A stretch of 64,000 bases of DNA from positions 1-64,000 of the forward strand of contig NZ_PIPT01000010.1 of NCBI RefSeq assembly GCF_003987395.1. Reading direction: 5' to 3'. Source of the stretch: Pseudidiomarina aquimaris (GTDB lineage Bacteria; Pseudomonadota; Gammaproteobacteria; Enterobacterales; Alteromonadaceae). The notes beneath the pieces are model-generated. The model saw nothing but the letters and a program-made list of their open reading frames with translations. It was not told the DNA's origin and searched no databases. This document shows positions 3,539-62,935 of the stretch, in pieces (position 1 is the first letter of the stretch; every line of letters starts with the position of its first letter). The translations under genes and the position numbers were made by a program.

Positions 3539-3630
3539 TGGAACAACCTAAAACGATTTCGATATACCTACAGTTTATCACACGTTAACACGAGTTTCAG
3601 CGCTGGTTTTATGGTGGATTATTAGATAAA

Positions 3631-3816: not shown

Positions 3817-3837
3817 ACAAAAATAATGCACTCATTA

Positions 3838-46325: not shown

Positions 46326-46369
46326 TTTCCGCAAAACGGTTGTTTTCTAAGCAAGCGCACCCACTTTAC

Positions 46370-46398
46370 TTGCGAGGCGCATGAGGATAGTGGATAAT
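46370..46398 (+). promoter_or_regulatory. Candidate promoter of the SRP RNA gene
   Basis: TTGCGA (46370-46375) and GATAAT (46393-46398) are separated by 17 bases. The -10 is followed by the GC-rich GCGCGCC, a discriminator of the kind seen in stringently controlled stable-RNA promoters. The expected start is near 46405, a few bases before the mature RNA. Confidence 0.6.
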
Positions 46399-46410
46399 GC
46401 GCGCCGTTAT

Positions 46411-46524
46411 GGTGGCCCTGTTGGTCCCCCCGCAACACGAACTGGCGAACCCGGTCAGGCCCGGAAGGGAGCAGCCGTAGTCAGGGATGTGGGTGCCGGG
46501 GTGTGGCTGGCAGGGCCGCCACCC
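46411..46524 (+). ncRNA. ffs: 4.5S (signal recognition particle) RNA
   Basis: This is the small bacterial SRP RNA, which pairs with Ffh to target membrane proteins. The two ends GGTGGCCCTG and CAGGGCCGCCACC close one long hairpin. The conserved apical core reads GGTCAGGCCCGGAAGGGAGCAGCC, with the GGAA tetraloop and the Ffh-binding asymmetric loop. Size (about 114 nt) and sequence closely match E. coli ffs. Ends are set by the stem; RNase P processing is expected at the 5' end. Confidence 0.95.
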
Positions 46525-46542
46525 TTCCTAAAAGCGAAGAGC

Positions 46543-46630
46543 GATGTTTGCTATTTGCTATTCGATGTTTGTTGAAAGCTTAAAAGCAAATGCGTTGTTT
46601 GCTATTTGCTGTTCGTTGTTTGTTGAAAGC
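46543..46630 (+). repeat. Two 37-base direct repeats of TTTGCTATTTGCT type
   Basis: Two copies (46543-46579 and 46594-46630) differ at only four positions and share GTTTGCTATTTGCT, GTTTGTTGAAAGC. They lie between ffs and kynA. Inside each copy short GTTTGCT/ATTTGCT/TTCG units repeat, so the array seems to grow by slippage. Confidence 0.85.
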
Positions 46631-46658
46631 CAAGACTAGATCGTTTTTAATCACCATC

Positions 46659-46686
46659 GAACAGCGAACAGCGAACAGCGAACAGC
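46659..46686 (+). repeat. Four tandem GAACAGC heptamers
   Basis: Four perfect copies of GAACAGC run up to the kynA ribosome binding site (GAAGGGAACC). They are the inverse complement of the GCTGTTC units in the 46543-46630 repeats, so the transcript could fold into a hairpin just before the kynA start. Confidence 0.9.
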
Positions 46687-46696
46687 GAAGGGAACC

Positions 46697-47812
46697 ATGC
46701 CTAAGAATAAAGATGCTGTGTATTACAGCGACTATCTCAAACTCGATACCTTACTTGCCGCACAACAGCCGCACAGCCCAAAATACGGCGCCGAAGCACA
46801 CGATGAAATGCTTTTTATCATTGTGCATCAAGTTTATGAATTGTGGTTCAAGCAAGTACTGCACGAGCTGCGTGCGATTCATGCCGATTTCAGCAAACCG
46901 CAGCTAGACGATAAAGCACTCTATCTGGTTGCGCATCGTTTGCGCCGAGTCCTTACCATTCAGGATTTGATGAATGATCAAGTGGCCGTTATTGAGACCA
47001 TGACGCCGCAGGAGTTTCTCGAGTTTCGTGACTACTTGGTGCCAGCATCGGGATTCCAAAGTATTCAATTTAAAGAGCTTGAAATTCGCTTAGGCCTTAC
47101 GCGAAAAACGCGTATTGCTTTTGATCAGCAGTCGTTTTACAACCGCCTCAATGACCACGATCGCAGCTATCTAGAAGAGCTTGAGCAACAACCAACCTTG
47201 TTTGATTGCGTGGATGCTTGGTTGGCACGTATGCCATTTCTTGAATTCAAAGATTTTAAGTTTTGGGATATGTATCAGAAGGCGGTGAATGAGGCACTGG
47301 ACCATGATGAAGCGATCATTCGTGAGAATGCGGTCGATGACGATCAACTTGCTACCGAGCTCAAAGGTATTCAAGCAAACCGTGATAATTTTGCGGCCTT
47401 ATTTGATAACGATCGTTATAAAGTGTTGCAAGAAAACGATGCAGTCCGTTTGTCGCAGCGTGCCATGTTGAGTGCATTATTCATTACACAGTACCGCGAA
47501 GAACCAGCGTTTAATCTAGCGTGGCAGGTGATTACGTCACTCGCTGAAGTCGATGAGAAATTGACGATTTGGCGTTATAAACACGCAATGATGGTGCAGC
47601 GTATGCTAGGTACGAAGATTGGTACCGGGGGGAGTTCCGGGCACGATTATTTGCGTCGTACAACCGAGCAAAATAGGGTATTTAAAGACTTCTTTGCGAT
47701 GTCGACCTATCTGTTACCGAAAAGTGCATTGCCGATACTTCCAGAGCGGGTAAGGGAGGCTTTAGGCTTTTCGTCTTTATCGGCGCTGGAAAAAGGTCAC
47801 GGCGCGACTTAG
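46697..47812 (+). CDS. kynA: Tryptophan 2,3-dioxygenase
   Basis: This haem enzyme opens the indole ring of tryptophan to N-formylkynurenine, the first step of the kynurenine pathway. The 371-residue protein has the family blocks HDEMLFIIVHQVYELWFKQ, FRDYLVPASGFQS and GTGGSSGHDYL, with the haem-ligating histidine in RYKHAMMVQRM. No kynurenine formamidase or kynureninase gene is nearby. Its 3' end overlaps the convergent PriC-like gene by 36 bases. The leader consists of the heptamer repeats described separately. Confidence 0.95.
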   Translation: MPKNKDAVYYSDYLKLDTLLAAQQPHSPKYGAEAHDEMLFIIVHQVYELWFKQVLHELRAIHADFSKPQLDDKALYLVAHRLRRVLTIQDLMNDQVAVIETMTPQEFLEFRDYLVPASGFQSIQFKELEIRLGLTRKTRIAFDQQSFYNRLNDHDRSYLEELEQQPTLFDCVDAWLARMPFLEFKDFKFWDMYQKAVNEALDHDEAIIRENAVDDDQLATELKGIQANRDNFAALFDNDRYKVLQENDAVRLSQRAMLSALFITQYREEPAFNLAWQVITSLAEVDEKLTIWRYKHAMMVQRMLGTKIGTGGSSGHDYLRRTTEQNRVFKDFFAMSTYLLPKSALPILPERVREALGFSSLSALEKGHGAT

Positions 47813-48064
47813 TGCCAGCATTTGTTGCTCGATACGTAACGCCAGCCACTCTTGCTGTGCGTTACCTTGTCCTCGTTCAAGCTGGCGTAGATTGTATGCC
47901 AGCTCATCACAATACTGCTCTGGCGCGCTGTGGGTTGTCTTAAACAGCTGCCCATCGAACCAGTCCTGAAACTGTTCCTCGCTCACGTTTAATCTTTCTA
48001 TTTGTTGCCGAAGTTGCTCGATTTGCTGTTCAAGCTTTTGGAATACAGTCGGTTCTTTTGCCAT
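47777..48064 (-). CDS. Short PriC-like primosomal replication protein
   Basis: The 95-residue product is an acidic, helical protein with coiled-coil N-terminus (KLEQQIEQLRQQIERL) and a C-terminal half with FDGQLFKTTHSAPEQY and LRIEQQMLALSRAVTF. This pattern resembles the PriC family, which helps load DnaB at stalled forks, but E. coli PriC has about 175 residues, so much of the N-terminal domain is missing or shorter. Assignment is tentative. The 3' end overlaps kynA by 36 bases. Confidence 0.55.
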   Translation of the reverse strand: MAKEPTVFQKLEQQIEQLRQQIERLNVSEEQFQDWFDGQLFKTTHSAPEQYCDELAYNLRQLERGQGNAQQEWLALRIEQQMLALSRAVTFFQRR

Positions 48065-48447
48065 GTGACACCTTGGTAACTTTGCGCGCTAAGCGTAGCC
48101 CAGAGCGTAGTCTAGAACAACAGAAAGAATGCAAATTGACCGCACTGAACTTTTTTTAGTCAATTTCGTCAAAGTTGTAGGATTAAAGCTCAAGGATTTC
48201 GGAAATAAAATGAAGCTTTGTTAATAACCTGTAATTGCATGTTTATGCAGCTTTAGGCTAGGAATAATCTCATTTCACAGGTTGACAGGCTTTGCCAGAT
48301 CGTGGGAGTATTGAGCAGATTATTGCTCTCAATATCGTGAGCAATAGCTGCAAGTGTTGATTAAACTCTTTTCGTCACTCAAATAACTGGGAAGTTGACG
48401 GCCTTAGTTGTTGTCAGCAGAAAGTTAAATCAAATTGGTTGGGAACT
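48065..48447. other. 383-base leader region upstream of the TonB2-type operon
   Basis: No gene is seen here. It holds an 8-bp inverted repeat AAATTGAC/GTCAATTT (48133-48140 and 48159-48166) around a T run. A perfect 8-bp inverted repeat TATTGCTC/GAGCAATA (48321-48328 and 48339-48346) overlaps an alternative stem GAGCA/TGCTC (48313-48317 and 48324-48328). I found no convincing Fur box or consensus promoter by eye, although one or more promoters are expected here. Confidence 0.5.
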
Positions 48448-49230
48448 ATGACCAAAGTAATCAATAAAAGCAAAGTTGCAGCGGCCCTCGTTGGTGCGCT
48501 CGCAATGGCAGGCGGCTCTATCGCTGCTGCACAATCTGTATCTACGCTGCAAAGCGAAGAAGCGAAAACGCATCAAGCTGATGTACGTTCACAAGAAAAA
48601 ATCAACTCGTTGTTCGAGCAATCAAACGAATTGCTTTACGAATACCGTGGGATTGTAGATCAGTACGAACAACTGAAAGTCTACAACGATCACGTACAAC
48701 GTTTGGTTGATGGTCAGAACGAGCAACTGGCTTCTCTACAGCGCCAGATCGATGGCATCGAAGACACCAAGCAAGGTGTTGTTCCTTTGATGTACAAAAT
48801 GATCGACGCTTTGGAGCAGTTTGTTAAGTTGGATATTCCAATTCATCGTGACCGTCGTCTTGAGCGCGTTCAACGTCTTCGTGATGTAATGGAAAACCCG
48901 AACGTAACGACCTCTGAGCAGTTCCGTCAAATTACCGAAGCTTATCAAGCTGAAATGGACTACGGTTCAGGCTTGATCGCTTATGAAGGTAAGCTGAACT
49001 TCGAAGGTGAAGAAATCTCTGTTGACTTCTTCCACCTTGGTCGTGCTGCGCTGATGGCGCAATCGCTGGATCTGAAAAACGGCTGGATTTACAACCAAGA
49101 CGCAGGTCAGTGGGAAGTCCTTGACGACGCCTACCTTGCGCCTTTAACGAAAGCCATCCGTATGGCGCGTAAGCAAAGCGCACCAGATCTTCTTCAATTG
49201 CCAATCTATGCAGCGGAGCGTGCAGAATGA
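48448..49230 (+). CDS. DUF3450 family periplasmic protein of the TonB2 operon
   Basis: The 260-residue product has a signal peptide (residues 1 to about 28, ending SIAAAQS) and a long coiled coil (about 35-120, with DQYEQLKVYNDHVQRLVDGQ). A conserved DUF3450 C-terminal half follows (HLGRAALMAQSLDLKNGW). These proteins are regularly encoded just before ttpC-exbB-exbD-tonB operons. Its role is unknown; a periplasmic helper for the motor is likely. The start is ATG 48448; a TTG 9 bases earlier is possible. It overlaps ttpC by 4 bases. Confidence 0.85.
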   Translation: MTKVINKSKVAAALVGALAMAGGSIAAAQSVSTLQSEEAKTHQADVRSQEKINSLFEQSNELLYEYRGIVDQYEQLKVYNDHVQRLVDGQNEQLASLQRQIDGIEDTKQGVVPLMYKMIDALEQFVKLDIPIHRDRRLERVQRLRDVMENPNVTTSEQFRQITEAYQAEMDYGSGLIAYEGKLNFEGEEISVDFFHLGRAALMAQSLDLKNGWIYNQDAGQWEVLDDAYLAPLTKAIRMARKQSAPDLLQLPIYAAERAE

Positions 49231-50597
49231 ACAAACTAGTGAAATCTTTGCTGGTAGCTACAGCATTCTCTCTAACGGTAGGCGCGAGCTCTGCATATGC
49301 GCAAGAGCAAGAAGTCTCCGAAGCAAAATCACTTGAGCAATTGCTTGAGTTGGTAAAAGAAAACCGTGCAGCTTCTCAGCGTATCAATGCTGAGCGTGAA
49401 GCTGAGTTCACTTCTGAGCGTGCCGACAAACAAGCTTTGTTGAATCGTGCAAAGAAACAACTTGCCGATGAGCGTGCACGCGGTGAGCGTTTGCAAACAC
49501 AATTCTCTGAAAACGAAATTGCACTTGCAAACAAAGAAACCGAATTGCAAAACCAACTAGGTACTCTTGGTGAGATCGTTGGTGTTGCACGTGGTGCAGC
49601 GAGTGACACAATCGGTCGTATCGCTACTTCAATCGTGAGCTCGCAGTATCCAGGTCGTGAAGACGTACTGGAAAGCATTGCGGAAGCGCGTGAAGTACCT
49701 ACTATCAAAGAACTTGAAGAACTTTGGTTAGCTTGGTTAACCGAAATGAAAGAGTCGGGCAAAGTTGTTACTTTCCCAACTGAAGTTACTTTGTTAGACG
49801 GTTCTACTGAACAGCGTGACGTAACGCGTATCGGCGTATTCAACCTGTTGTCTGACGGCGAATACTTCGTATACAACGACCAAGCTGAAGAAATTCAACC
49901 GTTGGGTAAACAGCCTGAAGGTTACATTCTTTCTGCTGCTGAATCGTTCTTAAGCAACGAATCAGGCTACGAAGGTGTGTACATTGACCCTGCACGTGGC
50001 CAAATCTTGAACCTTGCTACTCAGAAAGCAACGCTTGAAGAGCAGTATCACCAAGGTGGCACCGTAGGTTACGTTATCACTGTCGTTCTTATCCTCGGTA
50101 TCCTGATTGCTATCTGGAAAATCGTTACCTTGGGTTCAGAAGGCGCGAAAATCCGTGCTCAGTTGAAGAACACTGGTAACCCTTCAGAGAAGAACTCTCT
50201 GGGTCGTATCTTGAAAGTCTACCATGACAACAAGAATGACGACGTTGAGAACCTAGAGTTGAAACTTGATGAAGCCATCATGCGTGAAACACCACGTATC
50301 GATTCTGGTGTAAACATCATCAAGATCTTCGCGGCCATCGCACCACTACTCGGTCTATTGGGTACGGTAATCGGTATGATCGGTACCTTCCAATCAATTA
50401 CCTTGTACGGTACGGGTGACCCGAAAATCATGGCAGGCGACATCTCAATGGCGTTGGTAACAACGGCTATGGGTCTTATCGCTGCATTGCCATTAATTCT
50501 GATCCACGCAGTTGTTGCGGGTCGTGCTAAGAAGATCGTTCACACGTTGGACGAACAAGCTGCCGGTATTGTAGCCGCGCACGCGGAGAAGGAGTAA
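49227..50597 (+). CDS. ttpC: TtpC-type ExbB/MotA/TolQ proton-channel protein with a large periplasmic part
   Basis: The 456-residue product has a signal peptide (1-25, ending SAYAQ) and a periplasmic region (about 26-270) that begins with a coiled coil (SLEQLLELVKENRAASQRIN). A MotA/TolQ/ExbB module (about 275-450) follows, with GTVGYVITVVLILGIL, IFAAIAPLLGLLGTVIGM and MALVTTAMGLIAALP. Vibrio TtpC, which is needed by TonB2 systems, has the same layout. It probably stiffens or spans the periplasm so that TonB2 can reach receptors. It lies between the DUF3450 gene and exbB. Confidence 0.87.
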   Translation: MNKLVKSLLVATAFSLTVGASSAYAQEQEVSEAKSLEQLLELVKENRAASQRINAEREAEFTSERADKQALLNRAKKQLADERARGERLQTQFSENEIALANKETELQNQLGTLGEIVGVARGAASDTIGRIATSIVSSQYPGREDVLESIAEAREVPTIKELEELWLAWLTEMKESGKVVTFPTEVTLLDGSTEQRDVTRIGVFNLLSDGEYFVYNDQAEEIQPLGKQPEGYILSAAESFLSNESGYEGVYIDPARGQILNLATQKATLEEQYHQGGTVGYVITVVLILGILIAIWKIVTLGSEGAKIRAQLKNTGNPSEKNSLGRILKVYHDNKNDDVENLELKLDEAIMRETPRIDSGVNIIKIFAAIAPLLGLLGTVIGMIGTFQSITLYGTGDPKIMAGDISMALVTTAMGLIAALPLILIHAVVAGRAKKIVHTLDEQAAGIVAAHAEKE

Positions 50598-50601
50598 TCC
50601 T

Positions 50602-51126
50602 ATGCTTTACCTGATGGGCCTTTGGGAAACTATCAGGGATTTTCTGAGCACCGGTGGCGACGTTTTATATTTCGTCATGGGAGCGCTCTTTCTCATGTGG
50701 GTACTCATGATTGAGCGCTTCTGGTTCCTTACCGCTGTGTTCCCGAAGATGAAGAAAGACATCATCGCTAAATGGGACGCGCGGAAGGACACCACCTCTT
50801 GGTACGCTCACAGGATCCGTGAAGCATGGATTTCCGAAGCAGCTGATAAACTGAATGCACGTATGTTGTTGATCAAAACAACCATTGCCATGTGTCCTCT
50901 TATCGGACTATTGGGTACGGTAACCGGTATGATTACCGTATTCGAAACTATGGCAACGCAGGGTACTGGTAACCCGCGTTTGATGGCCGACGGTATCTCG
51001 ATGGCGACGATCCCGACAATGGCTGGAATGGTTGCAGCACTGTCCGGCATGTTCTTTGCGACTCGTTTAGAGTCAAAAGTGAAACGTGCTCGTGATAAGT
51101 TGGTCGACAGTTTGCCACATCATTAA
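50602..51126 (+). CDS. exbB: ExbB2-type biopolymer transport protein
   Basis: The 174-residue product is a short ExbB with three membrane helices (VMGALFLMWVLMIERFWFL; TTIAMCPLIGLLGTVTGM; ATIPTMAGMVAALSGMF). With ExbD it forms the proton channel that energises TonB. It is shorter than ExbB of the E. coli TonB1 system (244), typical of TonB2 systems. The start lies 4 bases after ttpC. Confidence 0.92.
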   Translation: MLYLMGLWETIRDFLSTGGDVLYFVMGALFLMWVLMIERFWFLTAVFPKMKKDIIAKWDARKDTTSWYAHRIREAWISEAADKLNARMLLIKTTIAMCPLIGLLGTVTGMITVFETMATQGTGNPRLMADGISMATIPTMAGMVAALSGMFFATRLESKVKRARDKLVDSLPHH

Positions 51127-51138
51127 GAGAGAAGAATT

Positions 51139-51540
51139 ATGGCACGTAAACGTATTCGTGAAGAGGAAGATGCAGCGATCGACATGACGCCGATGCTTGA
51201 CATCGTATTCATCATGTTGATCTTCTTCATCGTAACCACCTCTTTCGTTAAAGAAGCTGGTATTGACGTGAACAAGCCAGAAGCTAATCAGGCGCAGAAG
51301 AAGCCTTCTGCCAACATCTTCATCGCTATTCGCGCGAATGGCGAAGTATGGATGGATAAGCGGATGGTTGATGTTGAGCGTGTAGGCGCGAACATCGAAC
51401 GTCTATTGGCAGAACAGCCAACTGATATCGTAGTGATTCAGGCGGACAAAGAAGCCAAACATGGTGTTGTCGTTGAAGTCATGGATCAAATCAAGGAAGC
51501 GGGTATTGACAAGATATCCATAGCCGCAGAGGACGATTAA
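51139..51540 (+). CDS. exbD: ExbD2-type biopolymer transport protein
   Basis: The 133-residue product has one membrane helix (LDIVFIMLIFFIVTTSF) that holds the channel aspartate in IDMTPMLDIVF, and a periplasmic domain ending in DKISIAAEDD. ExbD pairs with ExbB to carry protons for TonB. It lies between exbB and tonB with spacings of 12 and 1 bases. Confidence 0.93.
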   Translation: MARKRIREEEDAAIDMTPMLDIVFIMLIFFIVTTSFVKEAGIDVNKPEANQAQKKPSANIFIAIRANGEVWMDKRMVDVERVGANIERLLAEQPTDIVVIQADKEAKHGVVVEVMDQIKEAGIDKISIAAEDD

Positions 51541-51541
51541 T

Positions 51542-52153
51542 ATGGTGCGCTTTATAGTATCAATACTATTAGGTGCTGCAGCTACGTTCCTTCTGTTCGC
51601 GTTCATGGCGTTCTTGATCAGCGGGGGCGAAGGGCGAAATGCACCGCCTCCACCGTCATCAGTCATTGAGATTGTGACTCAGCCGCCGGATTCGGAAGTG
51701 GATCAGCGTCGTCGTACGCCGCCACCACCTCCGCCGCCGCCGGCACAGCCGCCAGAAACGCCGCCAAACGAGCCTGATACATCAGATGCTGATGGTATGA
51801 ATCTCGACCTTGGCTTCGATGTGGATGTAGGTGGTACCGACACAGGCTTCGATGCCAGCGGTGCAATGATGCGAGACGGTGAAGCCGTACCTGTGGTACG
51901 TATTAACCCGCGCTATCCGCCTGCTGCAGCTCGAGATGGCGTTGAAGGTTGGGTAATGTTGCGCTTTACCATCGATAAGACCGGTGGTGTGACTGACGTC
52001 GAAGTTATCGACTCAAACCCTCGTCGGGTATTCGACCAAGAAGCACGTCGTGCACTCTTGCGTTGGAAGTACAATCCGAAGATGGTTGATGGCAAGCCTG
52101 TAGAGCAGCCTGGCCAGACAGTCCAGCTCGACTTCAGCCTGGATCAGGAGTAA
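51542..52153 (+). CDS. tonB: TonB2-type energy transducer
   Basis: The 203-residue product has an N-terminal membrane anchor (about residues 5-27), a proline-rich periplasmic linker (RRTPPPPPPPPAQPPETPP), an acidic stretch and a C-terminal TonB domain. That domain (about 110-203) includes RINPRYPPAAARDGVEGWV and ALLRWKYNPK. It transfers proton-motive energy to outer-membrane receptors. The short linker fits a TonB2 system helped by TtpC. Its stop overlaps the start of the next gene by one base. Confidence 0.93.
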   Translation: MVRFIVSILLGAAATFLLFAFMAFLISGGEGRNAPPPPSSVIEIVTQPPDSEVDQRRRTPPPPPPPPAQPPETPPNEPDTSDADGMNLDLGFDVDVGGTDTGFDASGAMMRDGEAVPVVRINPRYPPAAARDGVEGWVMLRFTIDKTGGVTDVEVIDSNPRRVFDQEARRALLRWKYNPKMVDGKPVEQPGQTVQLDFSLDQE

Positions 52154-53457
52154 TGATTATGATGCACAAAAAACTCTCTATGCTGCTTAGCGCGAGTGTA
52201 TTGTGTGGTGCTTTAGCGGCGGGCGTGCCTGTCGCTAATGCGCAAGACATCAATTACAACTTGCCATCGGCAGAAGAAATCCAACAGCGTAAAGATAATC
52301 GTCGTAACTTAACGGTATCTGAGCGTGTTGGGCGTCGTATCATGAGTGCTTTTGAACTCTACAGCGAGCAGGAAGACATTAAAGGCGCTATCGCAGAACT
52401 CGAAGATACCGAGCCACGCGAAGCATTTGACCAAGCTTACGTTGATCGTTTTCTTGGCAACCTTTATGCAGCTGACGACCGCATTGATGACGCTTACATG
52501 CGTGTAACGCGTGCAGCAGATGCAGACGTACTCGGTTGGTCAGATCAAGCGTCGGCGCTGAAACTAGCGGCGGACTTGAGCCTGCAGGTCGAGGACTACG
52601 AAGCAGCACTGAAGTACTACGGTAAGTGGTTGCAGTTCACTGGCGAATATAATGCTGACGTATTTTTGCGAATCGCGAACTCATACTACGAGTTGAAGCA
52701 ATTCGACAAAGTCATTCGCCCAGCGGATATGGCGATTCAATACTACGAAGAGCCAAACAAGAACCCTTACGTCTTGAAAGTTGCTTCGTACTACGAACGC
52801 AAAATGTATAGTGATGCGATCGATGTACTTGAAGCTGGCTTAGAAGTCATTCCAGGTGAGAAAAACTGGTGGAACCAACTGGGTATGATTTACATGTTAG
52901 AAGAGAAGCTTGATAAAGCACTTCAAACATTGGAAATCGCATACTTAGCTGGATACTTCGATAAAGAAAGCCAGTTCAAAGCACTTGTACAGTTGTATTC
53001 AAATAACGGTATTCCTTATGATTCAGCACGCTTGATGGTGAAACATTTGAATGCTGGTGACATCGAGAAGACGTCGCGTAACTACCAAAACGCGGCAAAC
53101 AACTTCGAGATGGCACGTGAATACAGTCGTGCAGCGGAAGTCTATGCATTAGCTGCAGAGCTTGCTGAAGAGCGAGAAGACCGCGCTGACCTTTATCGTA
53201 AAAAAGGTACTGCCCACTTGCGTGCGGAAGAATACCCGCAAGCAGCTCAGGCATACTTGAATGCGATTGAGCAGGGTTATGACGAACCAGGTCCGGTGTA
53301 TATGTCACTCACTGAAGCGTATTTCTATCAGAACAAATTCAGCGAAGCGCTGAGATATGTTAAAGAAGCGCAGAAGTTTGAAAGCCAACGCCGTAACGCG
53401 CGTAGCTGGGAATCTTACATTCGCAGCAAAGCGAGCAACTTAGGCGTGTCGCTTTAA
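52153..53457 (+). CDS. Tetratricopeptide-repeat periplasmic protein of the TonB2 operon
   Basis: The 434-residue product has a signal peptide (about residues 1-30, ending PVANAQ) and a series of TPR-like helical repeats through most of its length (for example EAALKYYGKWLQFTGEYN and PQAAQAYLNAIEQGYDEPGP). Such a gene commonly closes ttpC-exbBD-tonB operons. It probably scaffolds protein contacts in the periplasm; function is not proven. A strong terminator follows 34 bases later. Confidence 0.87.
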   Translation: MIMMHKKLSMLLSASVLCGALAAGVPVANAQDINYNLPSAEEIQQRKDNRRNLTVSERVGRRIMSAFELYSEQEDIKGAIAELEDTEPREAFDQAYVDRFLGNLYAADDRIDDAYMRVTRAADADVLGWSDQASALKLAADLSLQVEDYEAALKYYGKWLQFTGEYNADVFLRIANSYYELKQFDKVIRPADMAIQYYEEPNKNPYVLKVASYYERKMYSDAIDVLEAGLEVIPGEKNWWNQLGMIYMLEEKLDKALQTLEIAYLAGYFDKESQFKALVQLYSNNGIPYDSARLMVKHLNAGDIEKTSRNYQNAANNFEMAREYSRAAEVYALAAELAEEREDRADLYRKKGTAHLRAEEYPQAAQAYLNAIEQGYDEPGPVYMSLTEAYFYQNKFSEALRYVKEAQKFESQRRNARSWESYIRSKASNLGVSL

Positions 53458-53491
53458 GCACTTCATAGCTAACTACGCAAAAAAGTTGTAA

Positions 53492-53521
53492 AGCCCCGCT
53501 AGCCAAGCGGGGCTTTTTTTT
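53492..53521 (+). terminator. Rho-independent terminator of the TonB2 operon
   Basis: A perfect 9-bp stem AGCCCCGCT/AGCGGGGCT with a 5-base loop is followed by eight Ts. It cleanly separates the TonB2 operon from the hvfABC genes. Confidence 0.95.
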
Positions 53522-53531
53522 GTAAAACAGC

Positions 53532-53537
53532 TATAAT
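53532..53537 (+). promoter_or_regulatory. Candidate -10 box of the hvfABC operon
   Basis: A perfect TATAAT lies 42 bases upstream of the hvfA start, after the terminator. No good -35 is found at the right distance, because that position falls on the terminator stem. The promoter may need an activator. No ECF-type promoter was recognised. Confidence 0.35.
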
Positions 53538-53579
53538 TAAACTATGTCGTAAGGCATAAAACAAACAGAGGACTACATT

Positions 53580-53951
53580 ATGAGCAACATGAAGAAATCA
53601 ATGGCGGTCACCGTAGGTGCATTATTAGCAGGTGGTCTTTCTATGCAAGCTACAGCTAATCCTTTTAGCTACTCAGACATGCCTTCAGGCTATCAGCAAG
53701 AACAAAGCAAAGAGCGTGAAGCGAAATGCGGCGAAGGTAAGTGTGGTGAGAAGCACAAGGAAGAAATGAAAGAGCACAAAGAAGAAATGAAAGAAAAAGC
53801 CAAAGAAGGCAAATGTGGTGAAGGGAAGTGCGGTGAAGGGAAATGCGGCGAAGACCACAAAGCCAAAATGAAAGAAAAAGCCAAGGAAAAAGCCAAAGAA
53901 GGTAAGTGTGGCGAAGGAAAATGCGGCGAAGGTAAGTGCGGTGGTGCATAA
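53580..53951 (+). CDS. hvfA: HvfA-type RiPP metallophore precursor
   Basis: The 123-residue product has a signal peptide (residues 1-26, ending MQATAN) and a mature part of Lys, Glu, Gly and Cys. Eight cysteines (50, 55, 79, 84, 89, 110, 115, 120) lie in KCG motifs: one EAKCG and seven EGKCG. They form groups of 2, 3 and 3, separated by charged linkers with Met and His. In the HvfA family EGKCG cysteines are turned into oxazolone/thioamide groups by the MNIO enzyme HvfB with HvfC, giving copper-binding peptides. Here hvfB and hvfC follow directly. The signal peptide implies export to the periplasm after modification. The RBS is GAGGA. Confidence 0.9.
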   Translation: MSNMKKSMAVTVGALLAGGLSMQATANPFSYSDMPSGYQQEQSKEREAKCGEGKCGEKHKEEMKEHKEEMKEKAKEGKCGEGKCGEGKCGEDHKAKMKEKAKEKAKEGKCGEGKCGEGKCGGA

Positions 53952-53954
53952 GTA

Positions 53955-54797
53955 ATGCAGAACACCGTAGGACTCGGATTACGTCGTGAGTTTCTGGACG
54001 AGGTCCTAACGCAGGCTCCCAATGTTGGTTTTTGGGAGCTTGCGCCAGAAAACTGGTTCCCGCGGGGAAATGAAGCTTACCGAACGCTTGATCGCATTCG
54101 CGAGCAAGCACCATTAACAAGCCATGGGCTGTCGTTGTCAATTGGTAGCCCAGATGCGCTTGATATTGAGTTCATAAAAAAGGTTAAAACCTTTCTCGAT
54201 CGCTTCGATATTGCCATTTACAGTGAACATTTGAGCTATTGCTCGGCTGGTGGGCACCTTTACGATTTGTTACCGATACCTTTTACCGATGAGGCAGTCG
54301 CACACGTGGTAGAGCGTATTCGCCAAGTGCAGGACATTATTGAGCGACCTTTGGTACTCGAAAATGTTTCGTATTATGCGAGCTTTGCTAATGAGTTGAG
54401 TGAGCTCGACTTTATTAATGCGGTGCTCGCGCAAGCGGACTGCAAGTTACTACTCGACGTCAATAACGTTTTCGTTAACAGCGTCAATCACCGTTATGAT
54501 CCATACGACTTTATTGCGGGTTTACCAAGTAAGCGGATCATCTATGGCCATATAGCGGGGCATACCGAAGAGTATGATGACCTGTTCGTCGATACCCACG
54601 GTGCAGATGTAAAACAAGAAGTGTGGGACTTACTCGATTTTGCGTATCAACAGCACGGTTTATTTCCTACAGTACTTGAACGCGATTTTAATATTCCACC
54701 GCTACCGACCTTGCTTGCTGAGATGAATAAGATTACCACCCATCAACAACGAGTCGTAGGCGCACGTGAACAAAGATTTCAAAAGCATTCAGCATGA
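53955..54797 (+). CDS. hvfB: HvfB-type MNIO (DUF692) RiPP maturase
   Basis: HvfB is a multinuclear non-haem iron oxygenase of the DUF692/MbnB family that modifies HvfA cysteines. The 280-residue TIM-barrel protein has the expected iron-site residues: H57 (TSHGLS), H92 (SEHLSY), E136 (LENVSY), D169 (LLLDVNN), H199 and H203 (HIAGH), D213 and H215 (VDTHG) and E242 (LERDFN). The GLGLRREF N-terminus is typical. It starts 3 bases after hvfA and overlaps hvfC by 32 bases. It acts in the cytoplasm, before export of HvfA. Confidence 0.92.
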   Translation: MQNTVGLGLRREFLDEVLTQAPNVGFWELAPENWFPRGNEAYRTLDRIREQAPLTSHGLSLSIGSPDALDIEFIKKVKTFLDRFDIAIYSEHLSYCSAGGHLYDLLPIPFTDEAVAHVVERIRQVQDIIERPLVLENVSYYASFANELSELDFINAVLAQADCKLLLDVNNVFVNSVNHRYDPYDFIAGLPSKRIIYGHIAGHTEEYDDLFVDTHGADVKQEVWDLLDFAYQQHGLFPTVLERDFNIPPLPTLLAEMNKITTHQQRVVGAREQRFQKHSA

Positions 54798-55527
54798 ATT
54801 GGGCGCTTGGCTGCGCGGCCAAGACAGCTCACGTCATCCATTCGATAACGTCGAACCTCGCCGCTTAGCTATCTATAAACGTCTCATTCATAACAATATT
54901 CAGCAGTTCTTACGGGCAGGGTTCCCGGTTTTACAAACTGTCCTGAGCGATACGCAATGGCAGCTATTGTGTGCTAAGTTCATCGCTCAACATCAAGCAC
55001 ACTCTCCACTTTTTTCAGATATTGGTGCAGAATTTGTTGATTTTCTCGCCACTCTAGATGAGCCGCAACGGCTTCAAAACGAATTACCGCCTTGGTTATT
55101 TGAGCTTGCGCACTATGAGCGCGTTGAGGTTGACGTGTTGCATGCTCACTTCGATGACAGCCTGCAAGAAGTTGAGACGATTACGGAAACAACCGTCCTT
55201 TATCTTAATAGCACTGCACAAGTAGCCATTTATAATTATCCGGTTGCTAGCATTAGTCGCACACAACTGCCAGATGAGGTGCTCGCTGAGCCTTATTGCG
55301 TTTTGGTTTATCGTGAACCGGGCGCAGAGCAGGTAAGGTTTATGCAATTAAATCATATGACTGCTGGTGTACTCGCTGAATTACAGACTAATCCGCTTAC
55401 TTTTTCGCAACTCTTTGAAGATCTATTGGTCCAATACCCAGAGCAAGAACCACAAGCCTTGGCGTCGGGGCTCTTGCAGCTCGTGCAGGATTTTTGTGAG
55501 CGCTTTGTGTTGTTCACGCGACCGTAA
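54766..55527 (+). CDS. hvfC: HvfC-type (DUF2063) RiPP recognition/maturation partner
   Basis: The 253-residue product has an N-terminal DUF2063 domain (about 1-100: RRLAIYKRLIHNNIQQFL and AHSPLFSDIGAEFVDFL) and a C-terminal domain (about 105-253). In related systems it binds the precursor and forms a complex with the DUF692 enzyme. The GTG start lies inside hvfB (32-base overlap), so the two proteins are made together. No DoxX-like hvfD follows. Confidence 0.9.
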   Translation: MNKDFKSIQHELGAWLRGQDSSRHPFDNVEPRRLAIYKRLIHNNIQQFLRAGFPVLQTVLSDTQWQLLCAKFIAQHQAHSPLFSDIGAEFVDFLATLDEPQRLQNELPPWLFELAHYERVEVDVLHAHFDDSLQEVETITETTVLYLNSTAQVAIYNYPVASISRTQLPDEVLAEPYCVLVYREPGAEQVRFMQLNHMTAGVLAELQTNPLTFSQLFEDLLVQYPEQEPQALASGLLQLVQDFCERFVLFTRP

Positions 55528-55579
55528 TCGAGTATGATCCGCCCCGCTAAAATTAGCTGCAGTTATGAGGAATTCCCAT

Positions 55580-55708
55580 ATGGCTAACAATGAAAGATTC
55601 CACGATCCATCATGTAAACCGTGGATTGGCTGGTTGGCGGTCCTAGTTGTTGTAGGTGTACCGTGTTTACCAGCAGTTTTGCAGTGGTTTAAACACCTGT
55701 CTGCTTAA
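55580..55708 (+). CDS. 42-residue single-pass membrane protein, unknown
   Basis: A small frame begins MANNERFHDPSCKPWIGW and has one hydrophobic segment (WLAVLVVVGVPCLPAVL) with two cysteines in the whole product. A ribosome binding site (GAGGA) precedes the ATG at good distance. It sits between hvfC and the receiver-domain gene. Function is unknown. It could be a small membrane partner of either neighbour. Confidence 0.55.
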   Translation: MANNERFHDPSCKPWIGWLAVLVVVGVPCLPAVLQWFKHLSA

Positions 55709-55732
55709 ACATTCATCTCAATAAGGCAACTT

Positions 55733-56143
55733 ATGTCTCGCAAACTTTTGTTGGTCGAAGACAAACCAGCGACTCGCGCACAGCTTCTAGATATATTAGC
55801 GGAAACCCCGTTTGTGGTGACCTGCGCTGAAGACGGTTTAGATGGACTTAACCGCGCTAAAGCAGACACTTTTGACGTCGTCTTAGCAGATCACAAAATG
55901 CCGTTATTAGACGGGATGAATCTGTTGCGCAACTTGCGTAGTTTAGATGCTTACAAGCAAACACCATTGCTGTTAATGTCGACTCAAGATGTAAAAAACA
56001 TTGAGGACAGTGCGCGCCGCAGTGGTGCTGACTTGTGTCTGCCAAAGCCCATTGAAAGACAGCGCTTGTTAGAGCTGCTCGCTGATTTGTGGCAAACCAT
56101 GCATCCACAGACGCATCCAGATCAACGTTCAGCGGCCTCATGA
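55733..56143 (+). CDS. Stand-alone response regulator receiver domain
   Basis: The 136-residue product is a CheY-like receiver. The acidic pocket is LLLVEDKP, the phosphorylation aspartate lies in [12 protein letters not shown], the switch threonine in LLMSTQD and the lysine in CLPKPIE. All key residues are present, so it should accept phosphate. It ends with a short Ser/His-rich tail and no output domain. The stop overlaps the apt start (ATGA). No histidine kinase is in the window, so the signal is unknown. Confidence 0.88.
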
Positions 56144-56664
56144 GTGATTTAATTAAGAACTCAATTAGGGCGATTCACGACTACCCTAAAGCGGGTATTG
56201 TTTTTCGGGATATAACGCCGCTGCTCGCCGACGGTGCTGCCTTCAAGGCAACAATCGATGCTTTCGTGCAGCGCTACAGCGACAAAAACCTAACCAAAAT
56301 TGTCGGGATGGAAGCCCGTGGCTTTATTTTTGGTACCGCACTGGCTTACGCCCTCGGTATTGGTTTTGTGCCTCTGCGCAAGCCCGGAAAACTCCCGTCC
56401 AAGACGCTTTCACAAAGCTACGCACTTGAGTACGGTGAAGACGCTTTAGAAATGCATGTCGATGCCTTAAGTGCTGATGATCATGTGCTGGTCATTGATG
56501 ATTTGCTGGCGACGGGAGGGACCGTGTTGGCAGCAATCAAACTCATTAAACAGACCGACGCAAGCGTTGAAGAATGCGCGTTTGTGATCACTTTGAAGGA
56601 CTTGCCAGGTGCGCAACGCCTGCAAGAAGCATCGATTCCGTACTATACCCTGTGTGAATTTTGA
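56140..56664 (+). CDS. apt: Adenine phosphoribosyltransferase
   Basis: Apt salvages adenine by joining it to PRPP to form AMP. The 174-residue protein has the PRPP-binding loop [13 protein letters not shown] and EARGFIFG. The start at 56140 is translationally coupled to the receiver gene (ATGA); an earlier in-frame ATG at 56089 would add residues not usual in Apt. It precedes dnaX by 58 bases, an order common in gammaproteobacteria (apt-dnaX-ybaB-recR-htpG-adk). Confidence 0.95.
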
Positions 56665-56722
56665 GGTAACGTAAGGGCATCTTAATGTCACCGATTACCC
56701 GAGTTCGACAAGGAATCTAAGC

Positions 56723-58744
56723 ATGAGTTATCAGGTGCTCGCCCGTAAGTGGCGCCCGCATACTTTTAAAGAAGTGGTTGGCCAACAGCACGTTCTAAAA
56801 CCCGTTATGAACGCGCTCACCTCAGGTCGACTGCACCATGCTTGGCTGCTTACCGGAACGCGTGGCGTCGGTAAGACAACCATTGCCCGAATTCTCGCCA
56901 AAAGTCTTAACTGTGAACAGGGCATCACTGCCGAACCTTGTGGTCAATGTGGTGCTTGTAAGGCAATTGACGAGGGGCGTTTTGTCGATTTGTTGGAAAT
57001 CGATGCGGCGTCTCGTACTAAAGTCGAAGATACCCGTGAACTGCTGGATAACGTGCAATACAAGCCGACTCACGGGCGCTACAAAGTTTACCTCATTGAC
57101 GAAGTTCACATGCTGTCACGGCATAGTTTTAATGCGCTGCTCAAAACGCTAGAAGAGCCGCCGGAACATGTGAAATTTTTGCTGGCGACGACCGATCCGC
57201 AAAAACTGCCCATTACGGTGTTATCGCGCTGCTTGCAGTTCAATTTGAAGGCCTTGGATCGCCAAGAGATTGCCAATCATCTCGGCTACGTGTTGCAACA
57301 AGAAGCGATCCCTTTCGATGAAGCAGCGTTGGTTGCAATTGCTCGTGCCGCGCGTGGCAGTATGCGTGATGCCTTGAGTCTTACCGACCAAGCGATTGCG
57401 CAGGGCGAACAACAGGTCACCATGGCCGGCGTGCAGCAAATGTTGGGTGCCGTACCTAGCTTTGAACTAGCGACCTTACTCGAGCAAATAGTCGCGGGAC
57501 AGGGCGCTGATTTATTGACGACGTTAGCGCGGATAGCCGGACAGGTTCCTGATCTGAGTAACTTGTTGGGTGAAATGCAGAACTATGTGCATCAACTAGC
57601 CCTATATCAAGCGGTGCCAGAAGTGGCGGAAACCCTTGGATTGTCGGTTGAAGACCAACATTTGGCGCAACAGTTGCCGGCCGAGTTACTGCAAGTTTAT
57701 TACGATATCCTCATTCAAGGTCGACGTGACCTCGACTACGCTGCTGAGGTTCGAAGCGGCGTTGAGATGACTTTGTTGCGCATGATGGCGTTTCGTCCCG
57801 AGCGTATTGAGCTTATGGAGCGCACGCCCGTAGATACGACAACGGTAACGACGACTAAGGCCGCACCTGCGAGTGCAGCTAAAGCCGCTCCCGAATCGGC
57901 ACAGGGAACAGAACCTGCGCCCGCAACAGAGCCTGAGGTACCGCAGGAACAATTGTCCGAACCGGATCTGCCGCCTGAACCTGAATTTACAGCAGAGCCA
58001 GAGCTGCACGCGGAGCCACAAGTTGACCATGCTCCAGAGCCGCAGCCACAGCAACCGTCTGAGCCAGCTGCAACCACTGAAAACTCGCAGGATAGCTTGG
58101 CCTCGTTGTTGGAGACGCGGGCGATGCTGCAGCAAAAAAAAAATTCTGAGAAGCTGAAGGGCAACGAGGCTGCTGCGTCGGTTGTTAAGCCAACGCCCGT
58201 AGCTGCGCAGCCAGAACCCGAACCAGAACCAGAACCAGAGGTGTCGCCGAAGCCAGAAGCGCCAGAAGCACCAGCTCACGCGAGTGCAAAGCCAACACAA
58301 ATGCAGGCGCCTCAGGCTGAAGCAGCATCACTGGAATCCCTAGCCATACCTGATGACACGCGCAGTGCAGCAGAAATCGACCGTTGGTCGGCTCTCATTG
58401 ATAATCTTGAATTGACTGGCTTAGCACGGCAGTTGGCGCGCAATAGCGTACTAGAGAAACAAAACGAAAGTTACGTGCTGTGGGTGCGCGAGGAATGGCA
58501 GCACTTACTCAATGAATCGGTTGCGCAAGCAATTACGCAAGCATTGCAGGAAAATTTAGACCTGAAGTTAGCTGAAATTGCCTTGAAAAATACACCGCAG
58601 CCCACACCTTTTGAAATTCAGCAAGCCATTGACGCCAAGCGACTCACTGACGCCAAACAAAAATTGGCTGCAGATCCGCTAGCCCAAGCGCTACAACAGA
58701 ACTTTGGTGCTGAGCTGTTAGACGACTCAGTACAACCGCTTTAA
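56723..58744 (+). CDS. dnaX: DNA polymerase III tau subunit (gamma by frameshift)
   Basis: DnaX forms the clamp-loader motor and holds the polymerase cores together. The 673-residue product has the AAA+ module (P-loop GTRGVGKTT, zinc-site cysteines, [22 protein letters not shown]). Domain III follows (to about 365), then a low-complexity Pro/Glu/Ala linker (about 370-545) and the C-terminal domains that bind DnaB and alpha. A run of ten As at 58134-58143 in the linker codes QQKK. In the -1 frame it reads KF then TGA at 58147, so slippage would give a product of about 475 residues, like the gamma form of E. coli. Confidence 0.96.
58134..58143 (+). promoter_or_regulatory. Poly(A) slippery site in dnaX
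   Basis: Ten consecutive As straddle codons 471-474. The -1 frame reaches TGA at 58147-58149, four bases after the run. The length favours either ribosomal -1 frameshifting (A-AAA-AAA) or transcript slippage. Confidence 0.75.
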
Positions 58745-58763
58745 GAAACCAGACGAGGTAGAT

Positions 58764-59093
58764 ATGTTTAAAGGTGGAATGGGAAATATGATGAAGCAGG
58801 CGCAGCAAATGCAAGAGCGCATGCAAAAGGCCCAAGAAGAAATCGCGAACCTTGAAGTCACCGGCGAAGCGGGGGCTGGTATGGTGAAAGTAACCATGCT
58901 CGGTAACCATAACGTACGTCGTGTGCACATCGATCCAAGCTTGATGGAAGATGAAGACCAAGAAATGCTGGAAGACTTAATCGCGGCAGCGATTAACGAT
59001 GCTGTGCGTCGTGTAGAGCAGACAACCAAAGAACGTATGGCTGAAGTGACTGGCGGTATGAACTTGCCACCAGGTATGAAGTTACCGTTTTAA
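58764..59093 (+). CDS. ybaB: YbaB/EbfC nucleoid-associated protein
   Basis: The 109-residue DNA-binding protein has the family's N-terminal helix rich in M, Q and E ([20 protein letters not shown]) and the [14 protein letters not shown] segment. Dimers bind DNA and are thought to help chromosome organisation. It lies between dnaX and recR, the usual arrangement. Confidence 0.95.
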
Positions 59094-59104
59094 AGGCTCA
59101 AGCA

Positions 59105-59713
59105 ATGCGACTTAGTCCCGCAATCAGTGAACTTATAAGAGCATTGCGCATGCTCCCGGGCGTTGGGCCGAAGTCGGCGCAGCGGATGGCGTTCCAAATA
59201 TTGGAGCGCCAACGTGAGGGTGGTCTACAACTGTCCCAAGCCTTGGCTCAGGCAGTTGAACGCGTAGGCCATTGTGAGGTGTGTCGCACGCTTACCGAAG
59301 CTCAAGTATGTGAGCTATGCAGCGACGACGCGCGGCGCAATAGCGGTCTGCTGTGTATCGTTGAGACGCCTGCCGATGTGTTGGCGATAGAGCAAACCGG
59401 TCAATATGCTGGTTGCTACTTTGTCCTCATGGGGCATCTTTCGCCGCTTGACGGCATTGGGCCGGAAGATATTGGTCTCGATCGTTTAGCAGAACGTCTC
59501 GCCGCCGACACGATTAGTGAGATTATTTTAGCAACCAACCCAACCATTGAGGGTGAGGCAACCGCGCACTACATCGCTGAATTAGCCCGCCAGCACAATG
59601 TTTCCACGTCACGTATCGCTCATGGAGTGCCGGTCGGCGGAGAACTGGAGTATGTCGATCAAGCTACACTAGGACATGCCTTCAGTGGACGTAAACGCGT
59701 CGAATTTGATTAA
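59105..59713 (+). CDS. recR: Recombination protein RecR
   Basis: RecR, with RecO, loads RecA at single-stranded gaps. The 202-residue protein has an N-terminal helix-hairpin-helix ([15 protein letters not shown]), a zinc finger with four cysteines ([16 protein letters not shown]) and a Toprim domain ([17 protein letters not shown]). Spacing to ybaB is 11 bases. Confidence 0.96.
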
Positions 59714-59788
59714 ATTTTTCCTTGAAAACCCGCCAGGTGTCCCCATCTCTGTCTGAGTGTTAGCAACAATAGTGCAGGAGAGATCACT

Positions 59789-61690
59789 ATGGCGGAGACC
59801 CGTCAAGCCGAAACCCATGGCTTTCAGACCGAAGTGAAGCAATTGCTTCATTTGATGATTCATTCGCTTTATTCAAACAAGGAAATCTTCCTACGCGAGT
59901 TGGTATCGAATGCCTCAGATGCCGCTGATAAATTGCGTTTTAAGGCACTGAGCGACAGCAATTTAATAGCTGATGATGCTGAACTGCGTGTCCGCGTGAG
60001 TGCCGATAAAGACGCCGGCACCATTACGATTAGTGACAACGGCATCGGCATGTCACGTGACGATGTTATGAGTAATCTCGGTACCATCGCCAAATCCGGC
60101 ACCGCCGAGTTCTTTAGCCAGCTGTCAGGTGATCAAGCGAAAGATAGTCGTTTGATTGGTCAGTTCGGCGTAGGTTTTTATTCTGCATTTATCGTTGCCG
60201 ATAGCGTGACAGTGCGCACCCGCGTTGCTGGAGCCGCAGCCAACGAAGCTGTGGAATGGCATTCCAAAGGCGAAGGCGAATTTGATATTCGTGTCATCGA
60301 GAAGGCCCAGCGCGGTACCGATATTATTTTGCATGTCCGTGAAGATGCGAACGAATTCCTCGACGAATTCCGTCTGCGCGGTATTATCACCAAGTATTCC
60401 GACCATCTCAGCATTCCAGTGGAAATGCCTGAGCGTGATGACGACGGCAAGCTAACTGAATGGAAAGCCGTGAACTCAGGTCAAGCGCTATGGACGCGGG
60501 AAAAAGCTGAGATTAGCGATGAAGAATACCAAGAGTTCTACAAAACCATTGCGCATGACTTTGAAGATCCACTGCTGTGGAGCCACAATAAAGTTGAGGG
60601 TACGCAGGAATACACCAGCCTACTGTACATTCCGAAGCGTGCGCCGTGGGATTTATGGAATCGCGAACAACAGCACGGCATTAAACTCTATGTGAAGCGC
60701 GTGTTTATCATGGATGATGCACAGCAGCTGATGCCGACTTATTTGCGTTTCGTGCGTGGTTTGATGGACTCGAATGATTTGCCATTGAACGTGTCACGGG
60801 AGATCTTACAAGACAACAAGATCACGCGTGCAATGCGCAGTGGCAGCACCAAGAAAGTCTTGGGTATGCTAAGCAAACTCGCAAAAGACGATCCTGAGCA
60901 GTATCAAGAGTTTTGGAATACCTTCGGTACGGTGTTGAAAGAAGGCCCAGCTGAAGACCACGCAAACCAGGAGAAAATTGCGGCGTTGCTGCGTTTTACC
61001 TCAACACATGAGGACAAAGCGGAAGCGACGGTAAGCTTAGATGCTTACCTAGAGCGCATGGCTGAGAAGCAAGATAAGATCTATTACATCGTTGCTGATA
61101 GCTATGAAGCTGCGCGTGATAATCCTGCACTCGAGATTTTCCGGAAAAAGGGTATCGAAGTCTTGCTGCTGTCAGAACGTATCGACGAGTGGTTGATGAG
61201 CCATCTTAGCGAATACAAAGAGAAGCAGTTCCAAAGCGTTACCCGTGGTGATCTCGACTTGGGCGACCTTGATGATGCAGAGGATAAAAAGCAGCAAGAA
61301 GAGCTGGAAAAATCCTTTGAGGATCAGGTCAAACGTTTTGAAAAAGCGCTTGGTGATAAAGTGAAGTCAGTGCGTGTTACTCACCGTTTGACGCAATCGC
61401 CAGCCTGTATTGTCACGGACGAGAATGACATGAGCACGCAAATGGCTAAGCTGATGGAAGCTGCCGGGCAAAAAGTGCCAGAAACTAAGTACATCTTTGA
61501 ACTGAACCCTGAGCATAGCCTAGTGCAGCAGGTGGCCGCTTTGGATAATGACGAGAAGTTTGCCGAGTGGGCGAATCTCTTGCTTGACCAAGCAACCCTT
61601 GCCGAGCGTGGTAGCTTAAAAGACCCGGCTCAGTTTGTGACGCGTTTGAATCGACTGATGATGGAATTAAGCGCCGGCAAATTAAGCTAA
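59789..61690 (+). CDS. htpG: Chaperone protein HtpG (Hsp90)
   Basis: HtpG is the bacterial Hsp90 chaperone. The 633-residue protein has the N-terminal ATPase ([35 protein letters not shown]), the middle domain (with [13 protein letters not shown]) and the C-terminal dimerisation domain. An RBS (GGAG) precedes the ATG. A long hairpin follows the stop. Confidence 0.96.
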
Positions 61691-61696
61691 AACATG

Positions 61697-61726
61697 GAGC
61701 ATTGTCGACGAAAGTCGGCAATGCTC
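61697..61726 (+). terminator. Long hairpin between htpG and adk
   Basis: A 13-bp stem GAGCATTGTCGAC/GTCGGCAATGCTC (one G-T pair) has a GAAA tetraloop. It lies six bases after the htpG stop, but has no T run. It may end transcription or protect the 3' end of the mRNA. Confidence 0.5.
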
Positions 61727-61808
61727 GGACTTGTATTGCACGCCGCTAGGCGGTAAAGTTCGACCTTAATCCAACGCACACCAACAAAACTAGGAAAGAG
61801 GGTTGTAA

Positions 61809-62453
<645 letters not shown>

Positions 62454-62480
62454 GCAGCGCGTCAGCAAAGAATGTTTCGA

Positions 62481-62504
62481 AGCCCACCTTGTGTGGGCTT
62501 TTTT
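62481..62504 (+). terminator. Rho-independent terminator after adk
   Basis: The stem AGCCCAC/GTGGGCT with a 5-base loop is followed by six Ts. The stem is the same as that of the terminator at 19,323. Confidence 0.92.
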
Positions 62505-62530
62505 GTAGTCGACTTAAAAGGAGAATAACA

Positions 62531-62935
62531 ATGGCTGTCGAATTACAAATTAGTATGATGTATGCAGGTCTTCTGACGCTGCTCTATTTCGCCTTGTCAG
62601 TGGCTGTCATTCGATTACGCTGGCGCGATCGCGTGGGTATCGGTACTGGCGATTCCAAAGACCTTGAAGTTGCCACACGTATTCACGCTAATTTCGCTGA
62701 ATATGTGCCATTGATGCTATTGCTATTGGTGCTCATGGAACTGAGCGGGGCACCGGTGATGTTATTGCACGCAATGGGCGGCTTGTTATTTGTCGCGCGT
62801 ATTTGTCATGCCTTAGGCCTGCGCATGAGCATTGGGCCATCGTGGGCACGCACGGTGGGTGTTCTTGGCACCTTTATTGTCTTGTTATTGCAAGCGGGTT
62901 ACTTGTTGGGCTACGCATTCGGGATGGCAGTATGA
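62531..62935 (+). CDS. MAPEG family membrane protein
   Basis: The 134-residue product has four predicted helices and MAPEG-family motifs (RIHANFAEYVPLMLLLL and ARICHALGL). MAPEG members include membrane glutathione transferases; here function is unknown. The start ATG at 62531 has AGGAG just upstream. It overlaps the next gene start (ATGA). Confidence 0.87.
   Translation: MAVELQISMMYAGLLTLLYFALSVAVIRLRWRDRVGIGTGDSKDLEVATRIHANFAEYVPLMLLLLVLMELSGAPVMLLHAMGGLLFVARICHALGLRMSIGPSWARTVGVLGTFIVLLLQAGYLLGYAFGMAV

Follow-up and report, generated by a model that had tools for sequence, protein, structure and literature searches.

A minimal hvfABC cluster of Pseudidiomarina aquimaris and KCG-repeat proteins without maturation enzymes in a related clade

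Clusters of the Buf_EGKCG/oxazolin kind (PMC12452194), for which the name captophorin has been proposed (PMC13097082), have been described in several bacteria. The hvfABC(X) cluster of H. influenzae, the source of oxazolin, is reported to encode a precursor with a signal peptide, EGKCG motifs and six core cysteines, an MNIO enzyme, a DUF2063/RRE partner and a DoxX protein, HvfX (PMC13419390). The fonABC cluster of Fontimonas thermophila is a minimal ABC unit without DoxX, and its product fontiphorin, with seven sites, was characterised by NMR (PMC13097082). In Microbulbifer, the mmrABC cluster that yields bulbicupramide combines an EGKCG precursor of five to eight cysteines with MNIO and DUF2063 proteins, and its authors leave the physiological function open (PMC12538549). 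The Buf1 and Buf2 bufferins also pair an MNIO and a DUF2063 protein with precursors that have a Sec signal peptide and modified cysteines; sigma/NrsF genes are reported for Buf1 clusters and not for Buf2 (PMC12452194). Copper binding has been reported for Bufferin 1, oxazolin, fontiphorin, gonophorin and bulbicupramide (PMC12452194, PMC13419390, PMC13097082, PMC12538549). The characterised products of the class carry 5-thiooxazole (PMC13097082, PMC13419390), a structure to which Gadgil et al. re-assigned oxazolin (PMC13097082) and in favour of which Manley et al. likewise revised their own earlier assignment (PMC13419390). The oxazolone/thioamide product named in the initial annotation of the locus described below is thereby superseded.

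We analysed the first 64,000 nucleotides of contig NZ_PIPT01000010.1 of Pseudidiomarina aquimaris, hereafter the window, in which a complete and ordered hvfABC-type RiPP metallophore cluster, with a DUF2063 gene overlapping the MNIO gene, had been proposed at positions 53580-55527. The proposal was borne out. Three intact open frames lie there on the + strand in the order A-B-C (Table 1), hvfB runs 32 bases into hvfC, and the naming is correct, both HvfB and HvfC passing the cut-offs of their NCBIfam families. We are confident that this is a minimal Buf_EGKCG/oxazolin (captophorin) cluster that likely makes a Cu(I)-binding peptide; the product is very probably a copper-binding member of this recently described class. 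As a cluster, it is an ordinary further example of that class. It resembles the H. influenzae system in signal peptide, EGKCG motifs, enzyme, partner and gene order, but has eight core cysteines in blocks of 2+3+3, long E/K linkers and no adjoining DoxX gene. The last feature is shared with fonABC, from which it differs in having eight sites instead of seven; FonA67-80 is SGEAKCGEGKCGEK (PMC13097082), and block 1 of HvfA with its flank also reads EAKCGEGKCGEK. The Microbulbifer cluster, likewise marine, belongs to another genus, and the Buf1 and Buf2 precursor families differ from HvfA.

Table 1 Features of the hvfABC locus and its upstream region, in window coordinates
Feature	Positions	Strand	Basis
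Terminator-like hairpin (GCCCCGC/GCGGGGC and T run) separating hvfA from the TonB2/TPR operon	53490..53516	+	scan
GCTATAATTA box, possible -10 region	53530..53539	+	CTAT core common to nearly all 14 alignment rows
AGAGGA, ribosome-binding-site-like	53567..53572	+	sequence
hvfA precursor, 123 aa, 8 KCG motifs	53580..53951	+	NCBIfam NF050137; dN far below dS in pairs
Predicted Sec-type signal peptide, codons 1-26, cut after ATA26	53580..53657	+	read by eye; similar hydrophobic stretch in relatives
MPSGY, LxxGY-type leader element, putative HvfBC recognition site	53679..53693	+	LxxGY occurrence in relatives
Core block 1, EAKCGEGKCG (Cys50, Cys55)	53718..53747	+	sequence
Core block 2, three EGKCG (Cys79, 84, 89)	53805..53849	+	sequence
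Core block 3, three EGKCG (Cys110, 115, 120)	53898..53942	+	sequence
hvfB MNIO (DUF692) enzyme, 280 aa	53955..54797	+	Pfam, NCBIfam, alignment, AlphaFold model against 3BWW
hvfC DUF2063 partner, 253 aa, GTG start at 54766	54766..55527	+	Pfam, NCBIfam, model against 3DEE

The frame translation of hvfA agrees with the initial annotation, which had described a secreted precursor with seven EGKCG motifs and one EAKCG motif, its signal peptide being read by eye. These counts are exact, and all eight cysteines lie within KCG with no further cysteine elsewhere, whereas the KCG count did not exceed 4 in 20,000 shuffles of mature HvfA. The blocks, of two, three and three cysteines, are separated by E/K-rich linkers, and their starts (first Cys 50, 79 and 110) are 29 and 31 residues apart; this spacing differs from the regular 17-residue repeat reported for one type of Buf_EGKCG protein (PMC12452194). 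HvfA scored 44.7 bits with the NF050137 domain model of the HvfA family (KCGExKCG), above the cut-off of 19.5, and 32.3 bits with the NF050188 HvfA equivalog, below its cut-off of 95; a search of PHROGs gave nothing better than E 0.059. The predicted mass of the mature protein is 10599.85 Da, or 10567.60 Da with 32 H lost.

HvfB matches PF05114 with an E-value of 2.4e-103 and scores 411.5 bits in its NCBIfam family (cut-off 360), while its 284.2 bits with the MNIO_BufB equivalog, which stands for the Buf1/Buf2 bufferin type, fall short of the required 310. The expected iron ligands of a DUF692/MNIO enzyme, also claimed earlier, are present: in an alignment of 26 HvfB proteins, H57, H92, E136, D168, N170, N171, H199, H203, D213, H215, E242 and D244 are invariant, as is R10, and R11 and F245 are nearly so. 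HvfB has the determinants of a Lys-Cys-type substrate, namely two arginines (R10, R11) and a phenylalanine after the catalytic aspartate (D244, F245), which correspond to R15/R16 and D249/F250 of FonB by motif, FonB itself lying outside the alignment. D249 is the proposed base of FonB, and its arginines flank the substrate glutamate in an AlphaFold model (PMC13097082). By motif and the 3BWW alignment only, D213 and H215 correspond to D242 and H244 of the H. influenzae enzyme, and N170 or N171 to its N175; replacement of each of these three residues is reported to abolish activity (PMC13419390). The AlphaFold model of HvfB (pLDDT 88.7) has 3BWW as its best match (TM 0.80/0.88), followed by TglH and MbnB among the TglHI and MbnABC chains; the H. 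influenzae study reports 3BWW to be 72% identical to HvfB (PMC13419390). HvfC is a partner of the DUF2063 (PME type 1) kind (DUF2063 E 3e-23) and scores 223.3 bits in the NCBIfam HvfC family (cut-off 142), and its model (pLDDT 91.1) is nearest to 3DEE, a gonococcal partner protein, and then to chain A of TglHI, presumably the TglI partner. The genes, motifs, ligand conservation and predicted folds are established for this cluster.

From the characterised relatives we infer a reaction, an order of modification and export, and copper binding. HvfC would retain the HvfA precursor in the cytoplasm and offer it to HvfB, which would use a mixed-valent di-iron centre and O2. At each of the eight sites, the KCG cysteine and the carbonyl of the preceding lysine would be converted to a 5-thiooxazole with the loss of 4 H. 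Modified HvfA would then be exported by Sec and cleaved after residue 26, and the resulting 97-residue periplasmic polypeptide would bind Cu(I). Copper protection in the cell is the step of lowest certainty in this scheme. A main role other than copper buffering, in redox or in the handling of gold or further metals, to which copper binding would be incidental, is possible though rather unlikely. The Microbulbifer data speak for such a role, the MmrABC proteins being reported as undetected with or without added copper and the protection conferred by mmrABC in E. coli as slight, so that the authors are hesitant about a copper-protective role (PMC12538549), as does a Pseudidiomarina precursor gene located 5 bases upstream of a cation-efflux gene; the products of the class named above are, however, all reported copper binders.

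The surroundings of the cluster bear on two further readings. The TonB2 operon after which the cluster had been said to sit is real and lies upstream, but it is a positional neighbour and not a part of the cluster. Its position immediately upstream of hvfA, retained in two genomes outside the genus (G030 and G136), would suit a secreted copper-acquisition chalkophore that re-enters through a TonB-dependent receptor powered by TonB2. We nevertheless find a chalkophore very improbable, considering (i) the conserved terminator between the TonB2 unit and hvfA, (ii) the persistence of the TonB2 and TPR genes in three genomes of the genus without hvfABC, (iii) the lack of a TonB-dependent receptor by eye among the frames of 45000-64000, (iv) the reported contrast with methanobactin, in that pathways of the class are frequently induced by oxidative stress, gold or a surplus of copper (PMC13097082), and (v) the report of no copper response at all in Microbulbifer (PMC12538549). 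The hairpin upstream of hvfA can be seen by eye in all but one (locus L010) of 14 aligned upstream regions of the genus. A promoter scan returned no consensus sigma-70 promoter for hvfA, and no structured RNA reached the Rfam gathering thresholds at 52000-57000. This missing promoter and the three genomes without the cluster would be in keeping with an unexpressed, decayed relic, a reading that we consider extremely improbable, as all three frames are open, the HvfB ligands are invariant, and HvfA in three pairs with genome G000 has a dN of 0.01-0.06 against a dS of 0.83-1.30.

Three neighbours were rejected as parts of the system, as they remain in genomes G008, G009 and G023, all of which lack hvfABC: the TonB2 operon, a small membrane protein (55580-55708) and a response regulator (55733-56143). 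The small protein, of 42 amino acids with one apparent membrane helix, is conserved across the genus in the interval from hvfC to the response regulator; it has no Pfam, NCBIfam or PHROGs match and was matched in 21/21 loci, four of these with E-values of 0.009 to 0.58, too weak to be counted. Its cysteines are not conserved. The response regulator is a receiver-domain protein without an output domain and occupies the same place with and without hvfABC. Inspection by eye of the frames of 45000-64000 revealed no sigma or anti-sigma gene, in line with the initial annotation, but this does not set the cluster apart, sigma/NrsF genes being reported for Buf1 and not for Buf2 clusters. The absence of a DoxX-like fourth gene likewise holds locally and is not distinctive, the fon cluster also being ABC only. 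The cluster thus falls outside the four-gene hvfABCX definition, which includes that gene; the genome has a single PF07681 match, next to a LigB-type dioxygenase on a different contig. DoxX occurs in 11 of 26 genomes of the genus. Of the 20 good-quality genomes that carry hvfB, 10 have DoxX and the other 10 no match, so a distant DoxX was rejected as an obligatory missing partner.

The closest named relatives are Pseudidiomarina, with HvfB identities of up to 88%. HvfB is present in 23 of 26 genomes of the genus. Of the 23 genomes with a completeness of 90% or more, 20 have HvfB, and the same 20 have a KCG precursor. In the three genomes without hvfABC, the TonB2-TPR genes, the small protein, the response regulator and dnaX are kept around the site. 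The cassette was probably lost twice in the genus, because G008 and G009 form a pair while G023 stands apart in a DnaX tree that holds six of the 26 genomes. In P. planktonica (G014, L018), hvfBC are at the locus and the precursor is far off on the same contig, both being kept; this precursor, with 9 KCG motifs (L187, 4120-4563, − strand), is the one that precedes a cation-efflux gene (3209-4114, − strand) by 5 bases. Two Idiomarina loci (L023, I. abyssalis, and L026, I. rhizosphaerae) have hvfBC after the TPR gene and no KCG frame at the locus. Among the matches listed, the titles and abstract openings of the EGKCG and captophorin-type literature report no Idiomarina cluster.

We surveyed 147 sampled genomes of the family, taking a best match to the HvfB of the window above 300 bits as the HvfB type. 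A match was present in 107 genomes, of the close HvfB type in 70 and of distant MNIO only in 37. KCG-repeat proteins were found in 110 genomes; 68 of these are among the 70 of the HvfB type. The highest motif count among the genes counted, 26 KCG in near-identical repeats, belongs to a precursor of genome G055 (L259, 5944-6810, − strand). In 22 of the 147 genomes, a KCG-repeat protein is encoded (for instance L221 3854-4327, L223, L224, L232 and L236), yet neither an MNIO nor a DUF2063 protein was found: the Pfam profile detected MNIO in 0/22, and DUF2063 proteins were detected in 0/22, while four hvfABC control genomes did match DUF2063. Of these KCG-only genomes, 18 are of good quality and seven are shown as one contig. 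Antoine et al. reported Buf_EGKCG proteins without MNIO in 67 of 2583 precursor-bearing, fully assembled genomes and suggested that these peptides might do without the modification, or might have lost expression or function (PMC12452194).

In regions of about 4-8 kb, the KCG gene of 16 of the 22 KCG-only genomes lies with TonB2/TPR or apt-dnaX, where the window has hvfA; the remaining six have a neighbourhood in common, in which a dihydrouridine synthase and a short-chain dehydrogenase are encoded, as identified by Pfam on one example each. In a DnaX tree rooted on E. coli (built with one of the two dnaX copies of G115 and without G081, in which dnaX had no match), 21 of the 22 fall into one clade of 30 rows with a support of 100/100 and 14 genus codes. 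The same clade holds eight rows with KCG and distant MNIO only, one row with neither, and no genome of the HvfB type. When the KCG-only and HvfABC rows alone are considered, the tree needs one change, which suggests, for this one marker gene, a single ancient loss of hvfBC with hvfA kept as the simplest reading. Such a loss is not reported in titles or abstract openings among the literature matches listed.

The retained KCG protein shows no visible decay in its sequence. Three patterns of broken GKCGE motifs were absent from the 22 KCG-only genes, as against 255 intact KCG, and between 3 and 8 different KCG codon triples are mixed within each gene. Nine pairs of close relatives lacking MNIO, for which a dS estimate was possible, have a dN of 0.04-0.27 against a dS of 0.75-2.26, rough figures given the high dS and possibly mis-paired repeats, and one more pair is saturated. 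We hold it moderately probable that the ancestor of the clade lost hvfB and hvfC and kept hvfA (29 of 30 rows), and that the latter persists as a secreted Cys-repeat protein able to function without the thiooxazole of HvfBC, either with plain cysteines or with modification by a further enzyme. The NF050137 model is above its cut-off in all 22 KCG genomes without MNIO, and the seven KCG-only proteins scanned with NCBIfam are still classed as 'oxazolone/thioamide-modified RiPP metallophore', a label that calls for caution, as the model also fires where MNIO is absent.

KCG proteins with and without the enzymes differ in two features. Beside hvfBC, position 1 of the motif is Glu in 548 of 548 KCG (51 genomes); this count began with 59 loci, of which eight gave no precursor: the distant-MNIO places G154, G026, G032, G038, G097 and G054, the contig end G068, and G060, whose precursor (L243, 3956-4396, − strand) is about 59 kb from hvfB on the same contig. 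Where MNIO is absent, Glu takes position 1 in 121 of 255 KCG and Lys in 110, and Glu follows KCG in 251 of 255, against 364 of 548 beside hvfBC. An LxxGY element, defined as [LIMVAF]xxG[YF], follows the signal peptide in 50/50 genes beside hvfBC in the family (the N-masked gene of G067 was dropped) against 0/22 without MNIO, in all 22 of which NPF is kept. Fisher tests on LxxGY ignore kinship, and as its loss is essentially one event we do not use them as probabilities. Of the 20 genomes with KCG and a distant MNIO only, the four examined resemble the set without MNIO, with Glu at 24 of 46 and LxxGY in 0/4.

Among 80 named loci, 66 had a precursor within reach, and in these, the species of which partly overlap the family set, position 1 is Glu in 430/430. 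LxxGY is present in 54 of the 66, which does not support it as a universal recognition element; the 12 loci with hvfB and no LxxGY comprise ten titled Stenotrophomonas, one [Pseudomonas] hibiscicola and one Moraxellaceae. The loss of Glu1 and LxxGY would fit relaxed selection for recognition by HvfBC, these being correlations within one clade. Both features would be preferences of HvfBC and not strict needs, given that in vitro work on FonBC agrees with them in part. A FonA test peptide with a single Ala at Glu1 or Glu11 continued to be modified twice, and none of the positions ahead of the core proved essential by itself; failure at position 1 was confined to the Arg double variant and Pro, and FonB R15A and R16A still made product (PMC13097082).

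The cluster of P. aquimaris adds one genus to a class already numbered in thousands; the part worth following is the KCG proteins without enzymes in the related clade. A KCG peptide without its maturation enzymes is a natural experiment on the question, raised in PMC12452194, of whether precursors are functional in their own right when unmodified. If hvfBC were indeed lost and hvfA kept, the shed Glu1 and LxxGY could mark what HvfBC favours in a substrate, which makes them concrete candidates for substrate recognition.
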